Source: Nostoc sp. PCC 7107
GTDB lineage: Bacteria > Cyanobacteriota > Cyanobacteriia > Cyanobacteriales > Nostocaceae
Reading direction: 5' to 3'
Length of the DNA: 64,000 bases
Assembly (NCBI RefSeq): GCF_000316625.1
Contig: NC_019676.1
Span: 2,512,501 to 2,576,500, forward strand
Made by a program: the position numbers and the translations under genes. The notes under the pieces were generated by a model. That model was given only the letters and a program-made list of their open reading frames with translations. It did no database searches and was not told the origin of the DNA. Positions 43,542 to 45,896 of this stretch are shown one piece after another. Position 1 is the first letter of the stretch; the number at the start of each line of letters is the position of its first letter.

Positions 43542-44495
43542 ATGAGTAACAAACCGCTTCTGTCTATTATTACTCCTACCTTGGGTAAATTTTCTGACTA
43601 TTGGCTAGAAAATCTTTTAAACGTGGCAGGTTCTGTCCAATTTATTTTAGTTTATCCACCTAAAGTTAAAACCAGAGCAATCAATGATCCCAGAGTTACA
43701 GAAATAATTAGTCCCTACAAAGGCGAGATGCCACAGAGGTTTGTCGGTTTACTCAATGCTCAAGGAGACTATATTTTAGCCTTGGATGACGATGATTATG
43801 TGCATCCCCAAGTGTGTGAATTATTAGCTAAATATTTTCAACGTTTCCCTGAAAGTTGGATTCTGCGTTTACAAAAACTGAATATTGATATTAATGATGA
43901 AAAACGTATCCAACAACCGTGGGCAGAAATTCCTGATATAGAACAACTGGAAGTATGCAAAAAAACTCCTGAAAATCCTTATCCTTATCAAAAAGGTAAC
44001 TATAAAGGTTTATTAGAAGTTCCCATTGCTCCCTTAGATAAAAATTTTGATTGGCGTTATCTTTTCTGGCCATTTTTAACTAGAAAAGATAACGAAGGTT
44101 ATCATGTAGAAAATTTTAACAACGTTGTTTGGAGAAATGATTTAATTCAGCAAGCGCTTCCTGAACTTTCACACGCCACAAAAGTTATGGGAGCCGTGAC
44201 GTGGATACCCTCAAGTGGATTTGATAGATTATCTGGTTTATTTGTCCAAGCTAACTTTTTTGAGAAAGATGCTATTATCGGTCACTGGATACCAAAACCA
44301 GAACAAATTAGATATATAGATAAAGATCCAGCTTTAAAGCCACCAAGATTTCATGTGATTTCTGATGCCTTGTTAATTAAACACTTTCCCCAATATGGTT
44401 ATTTGTGGAATCTTGTGTTTAGCAAGTTATATGCTGTTCCCAGAACAGCGGGGAAATTAATCAGGTTGAAGTTAGTAAAAAAGGCACAGAAGTAG
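43542..44495 (+). CDS. Family 2-like glycosyltransferase
   Basis: 317 residues. GT-A fold: SIITPTLGKFSDYWLENLL at the start and the metal-binding acidic motif LALDDDDYVHP at about residues 78-88. The C-terminal half (about 120-317) is family-specific, rich in aromatic residues, with no membrane helix. The sugar and acceptor are unknown. It is the divergent neighbour of the GT4 gene and probably part of the same glycan function. Confidence 0.8.
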   Translation: MSNKPLLSIITPTLGKFSDYWLENLLNVAGSVQFILVYPPKVKTRAINDPRVTEIISPYKGEMPQRFVGLLNAQGDYILALDDDDYVHPQVCELLAKYFQRFPESWILRLQKLNIDINDEKRIQQPWAEIPDIEQLEVCKKTPENPYPYQKGNYKGLLEVPIAPLDKNFDWRYLFWPFLTRKDNEGYHVENFNNVVWRNDLIQQALPELSHATKVMGAVTWIPSSGFDRLSGLFVQANFFEKDAIIGHWIPKPEQIRYIDKDPALKPPRFHVISDALLIKHFPQYGYLWNLVFSKLYAVPRTAGKLIRLKLVKKAQK

Positions 44496-44550
44496 ACGTA
44501 GGGTGGGGATTTTTAGTTCAACTTTTATTAATAGTTTCAGATAACCACAA

Positions 44551-44620
44551 GAAAAAAGCCGCCGCAACTCAGCGTTGCAGCGCTTTCGGTGTGGTATGAG
44601 GAGCTTAACTACATATCATG
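44551..44620 (-). ncRNA. Yfr1-like sRNA candidate, copy B
   Basis: Minus strand: AGTTAAGCTCCTCATACCAC, then a GC-rich 13-bp hairpin (arms near GCGCTGCAAC and GTTGCGGCGGC, one bulge) and TTTTTTC. Same layout and sequence as copy A. The core CTCCTCATAC has one change from the Yfr1 core. Ends are approximate. Confidence 0.55.
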
Positions 44621-44720
44621 ATACAGTAGCTGACTAGTTTGCTACATCCTCGTAACAATTTTGGTAACAGAAATTTTTAGCAAGCACAGCCATAACTCCC
44701 AGTTGTAATCTTTTCAGACA

Positions 44721-44797
44721 AAATAAAAACCGTAGAAAAATATAATTTCTACGGTTTTATAGTGTGGTGTGAGGAGACTTAACTAATCTCATCATAT
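44721..44797 (-). ncRNA. Yfr1-like sRNA candidate, copy A
   Basis: Minus strand: AGTTAAGTCTCCTCACACCA is followed by a perfect 13-bp hairpin (AAAACCGTAGAAA / TTTCTACGGTTTT, loop of 7) and TTTTTATTT. CTCCTCACAC matches 10 of the 11 bases of the conserved Yfr1 core ACUCCUCACAC, which in cyanobacteria is single-stranded and lies before the terminator stem, as here. It lies downstream of arsS. The 5' end is not defined by the sequence. Confidence 0.6.
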
Positions 44798-44906
44798 AAC
44801 CCCTAGAAAGATTATTGACCCACTCTTAATAAAATTTGCAGCAAGATTATCGTTTGATGACATAACTCTAAATTATTGGGTATTTAATTTTTTCTAGAGT
44901 TAATTT

Positions 44907-45896
44907 TTAGATTAAAGCACCACCACAACTAGAACCACTCCCTGCGGTACAACCGTAGCAATAGGGGGCTGTTTGTACCTCCGAAACTAAGTCTAAATTA
45001 CTAGCTGCCAACAACTGAGTAACTGTTAAGTTTTCACCATTGGTGTTTTTTGCTGGTAGATTCATCATTTGGTTAAAATCGCAATCATAAACATTACCTA
45101 AATAATCAATCGAAAGTTCATTACGACACATTAAATGCTCAATGGTGCTGGCATTAAAATGGGATTCTAAAAACTGTAGATAGGGAATGTATAGTTTTTT
45201 ATACTCTAAATACATCTTAGTTCTACCAACTGGTAAATTTGTAATGGTAAACAAATTATTAAAATCAACATTAAACTTGTCTTTTAAAAACCTTTTATAA
45301 TCCTGCTCTAAATTATTTTGTTCAGGAGCTAAAGCAAATTTTTTATCTGTGGGTAATTGGGGATTATAAACTAAATCTAAAATTAAATTTAGGTCTTGAG
45401 CATAACCAAATTTGTTGAGCAATTGCAAAGCTTTAATAGAATCATCAAAAACCCCAGCACCGCGCATTTTATCTACGTTATCTGCTAAATAACAGGGTAG
45501 AGAGGCAACTATTCTGACTTGATTTTGCGCGAAATATTCTGGTAAATCTCCAAAACCATCTACAAAATAAATAGTCAAATTAGAGCGAACAATTACCTGT
45601 TTATTAGTTGCTCTCGCTGCTTCTACGAGTGGTTTAAAGCCATAATTCATTTCTGGTGCGCCACCAGTCAAATCAACAATCTCAATTTCGGGAAATTTAT
45701 GAATTAATTCAATCAATTGTTTGCAAATTTCAGGAGAAAGTTCTTCTGTACGTTTTGGGCTGGCTTCAACATGACAATGACTACAAGCAAGGTTGCAGCG
45801 TTTACCCAGATTAATTTGCAAGATAGTAATTTTCTTTTTGGTTAAAGGTGTATTTAATTTATGATTGAAGTTAGTAACTATTGAGGTAGTTTGCAT
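44907..45896 (-). CDS. arsS: Arsenosugar biosynthesis radical SAM protein ArsS
   Basis: 329 residues. Radical SAM motif CNLACSHC (about residues 34-41), TGGAPEMNYGFKPL, and the ArsS C-terminal region with the cysteines of VYDCDFNQMMNLP and APYCYGCTAGSGSSCGG. In cyanobacteria ArsS adds a 5'-deoxyadenosyl group to dimethylarsenite made by ArsM, giving arsenosugar precursors. The gene is the third of arsM-PiT-arsS, all on the minus strand with short gaps, so the call is strongly supported by context. Confidence 0.9.
   Translation of the reverse strand: MQTTSIVTNFNHKLNTPLTKKKITILQINLGKRCNLACSHCHVEASPKRTEELSPEICKQLIELIHKFPEIEIVDLTGGAPEMNYGFKPLVEAARATNKQVIVRSNLTIYFVDGFGDLPEYFAQNQVRIVASLPCYLADNVDKMRGAGVFDDSIKALQLLNKFGYAQDLNLILDLVYNPQLPTDKKFALAPEQNNLEQDYKRFLKDKFNVDFNNLFTITNLPVGRTKMYLEYKKLYIPYLQFLESHFNASTIEHLMCRNELSIDYLGNVYDCDFNQMMNLPAKNTNGENLTVTQLLAASNLDLVSEVQTAPYCYGCTAGSGSSCGGALI

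Follow-up and report, generated by a model that had tools for sequence, protein, structure and literature searches.

Two units on the minus strand downstream of arsS in Nostoc sp. PCC 7107 share the block AGTTAAG(T)CTCCTCA(C/T)ACCACAC, each closed by an intrinsic terminator, and judged by their sequence they are predicted small RNAs of the Yfr1-motif (‘Yfr10-like’) kind. This kind is already known; new are the conservation of a tandem pair, how widely it occurs, the promoter-like elements that go with it and a C-to-U pattern in its core. Taken as a whole, the units are likely to be two separately promoted, duplicated, trans-acting small RNAs that would repress envelope genes. The features are listed in Table 1 with their coordinates in the window, i.e., the whole 64,000-nt stretch that was analysed (contig NC_019676.1, positions 2,512,501 to 2,576,500).

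Table 1. Predicted features of the two units and their immediate context (positions in the window)
Feature	Position	Strand	Basis
sRNA gene copy A, predicted transcript of ~67 nt	44718..44785	-	Extent inferred from conserved block and terminator; alignment, model R1, fold
Copy A core CTCCTCACACCACAC	44762..44776	-	Exact core site; no change at positions 1-5 and 7-10 among 41 A units
Copy A intrinsic terminator	44726..44758	-	Terminator scan; covariation
Copy A -10-like element TATGAT	44791..44796	-	-10-like hexamer in 40/41 A units
sRNA gene copy B, predicted transcript of ~60-65 nt	44547..44611	-	Alignment, model R2, fold
Copy B core CTCCTCATACCACAC, T in place of C at position 8	44589..44603	-	Exact core site; variant in 7/41 B units
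Copy B intrinsic terminator	44560..44582	-	Terminator scan; covariation
Copy B -10-like element TATCAT	44618..44623	-	-10-like hexamer in 41/41 B units
GTTACCAAAATTGTTAC box ahead of copy B, putative site for a regulator	44652..44668	-	At most 2 mismatches in 41/41 B and 13/41 A units
arsS, upstream neighbour, context only	44907..45896	-	TIGR04167, 414 bits (cutoff 300)

Two conserved units with a common core and covarying terminators

The pattern AGTTAAGN{0,1}CTCCTCAYACCACAC occurs at exactly two sites in the window, 44589-44610 (copy B) and 44762-44784 (copy A), both on the minus strand, a number reached by none of 100 dinucleotide shuffles of the window. A search of the whole window for the 15-nt core with up to two mismatches likewise returned two sites only, both exact (0.10 expected; two sites in 1 of 100 shuffles). 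Across the whole genome CTCCTCAYACCAC has 3 sites, against 0 for the reversed control, and when sites are summed over this genome (G000) and 59 relatives the count is 126 against 12. The original prediction of paired minus-strand units with a common core block and terminators is thus borne out.

Only two terminator-like sites lie in 44500-44900, both 3’ of the cores (0.1 expected). Their stems had been called unrelated, which does not hold, since in many relatives those of A and B both read approximately GCCGTG(G/A)AA...TT(C/T)CACGGC, and R2, a covariance model built from B units, gives copy A 59.3 bits. In the alignment of A units (A1, 37 units; L015, L040, L073 and L083 of the 41 left out), 97.0% of terminator cells are paired and 5 of 10 pairs show two-sided changes; the corresponding values for B units (A2, 40 units; L054 of the 41 left out) are 92.2% and 7 of 10. 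None of 500 shuffles reached the covariation score of either alignment, and the number of pairs with two-sided changes was reached in 0/500 (A) and 3/500 (B), the number of further pair types in the A alignment being not above shuffles (345/500). Conservation and covariation therefore back the view that these are tandem sRNA genes whose Yfr1 core was kept while the terminators changed.

The core is predicted to be open only when the RNA begins near AGTTAAG, the putative start suggested by the conserved block and the -10-like element, and the copy A core pairs when a longer 5’ end is given. The proposed order of a single-stranded core followed by a terminator consequently stands for a start near AGTTAAG but not for a longer 5’ end of copy A.

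Promoter-like elements and a box ahead of copy B

Nearly all units have a -10-like hexamer some 20 nt ahead of the core (Table 1), the pattern being lenient and applied without a control, and a sigma-70 scan of 44500-44900 gave 0 promoters against 1.6 in shuffles. About 65 nt before the core, the GTTACNAAAANTGTTAC box is found with at most two mismatches in 41/41 B and 13/41 A units, as opposed to 32 of 5323 control windows from the same loci, which may take in the partner copy’s own box; the strict form GTTAC-N7-GTTAC is present in 37 B and 15 A units. Genome-wide, the sole exact box site is the one before copy B. Copy A of this genome and 27 others among the 41 A units lack the box at up to two mismatches. 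Control of the two genes may thus differ, copy B possibly answering to a factor that binds the GTTAC box. A one-mismatch box, an inverted repeat of the form GTTAC-N7-GTAAC, was also seen upstream of a serpin gene (PF00079) at L229 (G000:C1:4886618).

Distribution of the units among relatives

Downstream of arsS, 81 loci (the window and 80 kept from 273 confirmed ones) were searched on the arsS strand over 2600 nt. A followed by B is found in 26, A only in 15, B only in 15 and neither in 25; fewer than 1400 nt follow arsS in 7 of the 80 loci, three of which (L027, L042 and L052) are among the 25, so that some absences may correspond to contig ends. Units were gathered by likeness to the core (at most 3 changes), which hides more diverged ones; two that the automatic terminator filter had missed (L015 B and L064 A) were added by hand, a chance match 1995 nt downstream in L092 was taken out by hand, and the first units of L067 and L082 were assigned to class A by hand. 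The two classes are told apart by the signature before the core (AAGT in A, AAG in B), and pairs, with a core-to-core spacing of 135 to 1248 nt, occur in records of Nostoc, Cylindrospermum, Komarekiella, Scytonema and Brasilonema.

The covariance models R1 (A units) and R2 give 86.2 bits to copy A and 75.2 bits to copy B, respectively, each copy being itself a training row. In the family of the window, 106 of 118 sampled genomes, from 53 of its 56 sampled genera, have a match to R2 at E up to 1e-5, a model by which A units are also scored. Among 194 genomes drawn from the class, 17 have a match at E up to 1e-3, and matches better than 1e-7 come from the family and from one genome of the order (G049); the weaker ones that carry the Yfr1 5’ hairpin sequence (L257, L258 and L261, the remaining weak matches having been partly read) are canonical Yfr1. 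The original prediction was to be abandoned if relatives shared nothing beyond the core, and the similarity found there is strong. Overall, the Yfr1-motif pair looks like an old, duplicated side-family present in many relatives.

A third class of Yfr1-motif unit, without the AGTTAAG signature, was noticed at L168 (1501), L182 (1501), L225 (2866) and L116 (1501), in a Fischerella record and other genomes. Three of these units read attaaatttgCTCCTCACACCacacc..., followed by what by eye is a terminator-like hairpin, and L225, L182 and L116 have no Rfam match up to E 0.1.

The arsenic genes are neighbours, not a requirement

The description of the pair as lying downstream of an arsenosugar operon is correct here, where arsM (NF038099, 574 bits), a PHO4-type permease gene and arsS precede it on the same strand—with a family 2 glycosyltransferase gene beyond them on the opposite strand—but it does not extend to all relatives. 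In 12 stretches of 7.5-8 kb each, picked from model matches, a B-model unit is present in 12/12, whereas ArsS is found over at least 300 residues in four (L283, L290, L292 and L293) and was not found in seven (L284 to L289 and L291). In the remaining stretch (L282, G122:C3) only ArsS residues 270-310 and ArsM residues 16-80 are matched, around a whole permease gene and next to a well-kept B-type unit; here the sRNA seems to have outlasted arsenic genes that are in decay. The B units of L286 and L287 (G113:C1:634773 and 3479683), neither beside arsS, do not differ at all within 1 kb around the unit, and the genome is listed with 6% contamination; they may therefore not be independent, and they represent either a duplication or an assembly artefact. 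In G139, A adjoins arsS (L128) and B lies about 92 kb away.

The persistence of B in stretches without arsS makes the link to arsenic a positional one, and these stretches together with G139 indicate that the arsenic genes are not needed to retain the sRNA. A function in arsenic metabolism was set aside, position alone speaking for it; a literature search found no paper containing both Yfr1 and arsenic words.

Core changes and candidate targets

Within the first 12 positions of the core, the 82 units (41 of each class) show C-to-T departures only, save one C-to-A, and U2, C3, C4, U5, A7, A9 and A12 are invariant. On a quick ArsS protein tree, the fewest changes required are 4 in A and 13 in B, at least 17 in total, and the T at position 8, the change seen in copy B, takes 2. 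Of the 11 genomes from the genus, 8 carry a CTCCTCATACCAC site. Since a U in place of C still pairs with G by wobble, the pattern fits a core read against GGUGUGAGGAG, an argument weakened by C-to-T being a common mutation anyway and by the units having been gathered by core likeness. The change in copy B, which it had been suggested could alter target choice, is wobble-compatible and need not redirect the RNA.

Genome-wide, the target pattern GTRTGAGGA-N3..15-ATG has 14 sites against 12 for reversed controls, i.e., there is no overall enrichment of targets in the genome. Copy B and Yfr1 themselves, read as their complements, account for two of these sites, and six precede an ORF of at least 100 aa, three of these being genes for OprB/SLH porins with complementary sites of 9-11 nt (G000:C1:4546438, 4572554 and 5948073). 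For the best porin leader the predicted duplexes reach -24.3 (A), -21.0 (B) and -22.7 (Yfr1) kcal/mol, and none of 300 mononucleotide shuffles is as good; for the other two, 27 and 21 of 300 shuffles are as good with copy B, and 1 and 9 with copy A. For these two porins the predicted pairing thus exceeds shuffles by a modest margin only, especially for copy B. In Nostoc PCC 7120, the targets predicted for Yfr1 include OprB-like porins (PMC6974561).

The leader of an HTH_25 gene, which we label RodZ-like, carries GGTATGAGGAG, the exact complement of the copy B variant core (L270, G000:C1:260904), with predicted duplexes of -26.2 (B), -20.4 (A) and -17.7 (Yfr1). Among readable RodZ-like leaders, and for a site picked post hoc, GTATGRGGAG is present in 6 of 7 U-variant genomes of the genus (G000, G004, G005, G006, G008 and G009, not G010), in neither of two C-variant genomes (G002 and G003) and in none of 10 more distant ones; G001 is unresolved and G007 is without a full-length ortholog. 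Co-evolution of the copy B U with this leader was set aside, the genomes being too few and non-independent.

Relation to Yfr1 and alternative explanations

The units had been taken for a tandem Yfr1, and copy A is indeed identical to canonical Yfr1 over the 15 nt of CTCCTCACACCACAC, which in both is predicted to be single-stranded and followed by a terminator; the pairing target, GGUGUGAGGAG, is probably also the same. Nevertheless, RF01116 (Yfr1) has no match in the whole window at the gathering threshold (38 bits), nor in 44400-45000 even at E up to 10, and a separate canonical Yfr1—which the original prediction itself had listed among the findings that would speak against it—lies at C1:3104481-3104545 (RF01116, 61.8 bits), upstream of a thioredoxin-like ORF with a WCGPC motif. 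The canonical RNA is predicted to fold into a hairpin, an open core and a terminator hairpin; the predicted A and B transcripts, given their inferred 5’ ends, have an open 5’ end and the 3’ terminator hairpin only, and thus differ from the two stem-loops 16-20 unpaired nt apart of Yfr1. Neither copy carries the ultraconserved Yfr1 element ACUCCUCACAC (PMC2190773) unchanged: the proposed match of 10/11 bases applies to copy A, while copy B has 9/11, departing at the first base and by the C-to-T. R1 and R2 each score canonical Yfr1 at just 17.9 bits, and the pair further differs in being duplicated, in a core that tolerates C-to-U changes and in its promoter region. Tandem copies of Yfr1 proper were therefore rejected, on the canonical copy elsewhere in the genome and the missing 5’ stem, and we regard this reading as very improbable.

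It is also quite unlikely that the units are mere terminators or the 3’ UTR of the arsM-pit-arsS operon, with any RNA a processed 3’ end. The shared strand, the 130 nt that separate copy A from the arsS stop, two terminators in succession and the lack of a consensus promoter in 44500-44900 all agree with such a reading, but the core is more conserved than the stem, a -10-like element precedes each copy, the B core lies as far as 1381 nt from arsS (81 loci), and, above all, B persists without arsS or beside its remnant. Rather unlikely, too, is a role of the RNAs as decoys or partners in a Yfr1/Yfr2 circuit, for example soaking up Yfr2 and so freeing Yfr1, instead of as repressors: in Prochlorococcus, the Yfr1/Yfr10 motif is a pairing site for Yfr2 (PMC6778093), and Nostoc EMSAs showed Yfr2 bound to Yfr1 (PMC6974561), but a conserved core would also serve direct targets.

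Discussion

The reading that we prefer is that copies A and B are two separately promoted sRNA genes which would stem from an old tandem duplication. Each would yield an RNA of about 60-70 nt, with an unstructured 5’ end presenting the Yfr1 core ahead of the terminator hairpin; CUCCUYAYACC would pair in trans with GGUGUGAGGAG-like Shine-Dalgarno stretches of mRNAs, blocking ribosome binding and shutting off translation of envelope genes such as those for OprB/SLH porins. From sequence, then, the pair probably helps to switch off outer-membrane and cell-wall genes. The known behaviour of the motif is in line with this, Yfr1 acting via its core on 5’ UTRs in work on PCC 7120 (PMC6974561) and neither Yfr1 nor Yfr10 binding ppa in vitro once UCCU was mutated (PMC6778093).

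Small RNAs with the Yfr1 motif beside Yfr1 were described by Lambrecht et al. 2019, including TSS 2515196r and TSS 3750139f of Nostoc PCC 7120 (PMC6778093), and the present pair is the same in having the motif, with one or two changes, in predicted non-Yfr1 sRNAs of a genome that also has Yfr1; the terms Yfr10 and paralog are absent from the main text of PMC6974561. Synteny, structure and sequence outside the motif are poorly conserved among Yfr10-like sRNAs (PMC6778093), whereas here conservation across a family extends to the sequence that surrounds the core and partly to synteny; the motif of Prochlorococcus Yfr10 lies in a stem loop, as opposed to a predicted unpaired 5’ end here, given a start near AGTTAAG. 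In PCC 7120, alr3095 lies presumably at about 3.7 Mb, as estimated by gene number from genome size and gene count. This gene is arsM (PMC5258700), and TSS 3750139f, on the forward strand, probably has its ortholog in one of the two copies described here, with strand and approximate position in agreement. Tandemly repeated sRNA genes are also known in heterocystous cyanobacteria from the NsiR1 array of Nostoc, a likeness of layout for which no common motif is claimed.

In Nostoc, Yfr1 has been characterized as nearly constitutive, and how its effect might be modulated has been posed as a question (PMC6974561). Output from A and B would add to or tune that of Yfr1. It is possible, if on balance doubtful, that most of the family, including Desmonostoc, Calothrix and Fischerella, has a further branch of the Yfr1 network with a control of its own. 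This branch would be a duplicated pair whose core drift is nearly all pairing-preserving C-to-U, copy B answering to a separate GTTAC-box regulator and being retuned within the genus to other targets, e.g., the RodZ-like HTH gene with GGTATGAGGAG. With the same core and promoters of its own, the pair could give a regulated output at Yfr1 target sites, and it might confound experiments that rely on Yfr1 overexpression or antisense sponges.
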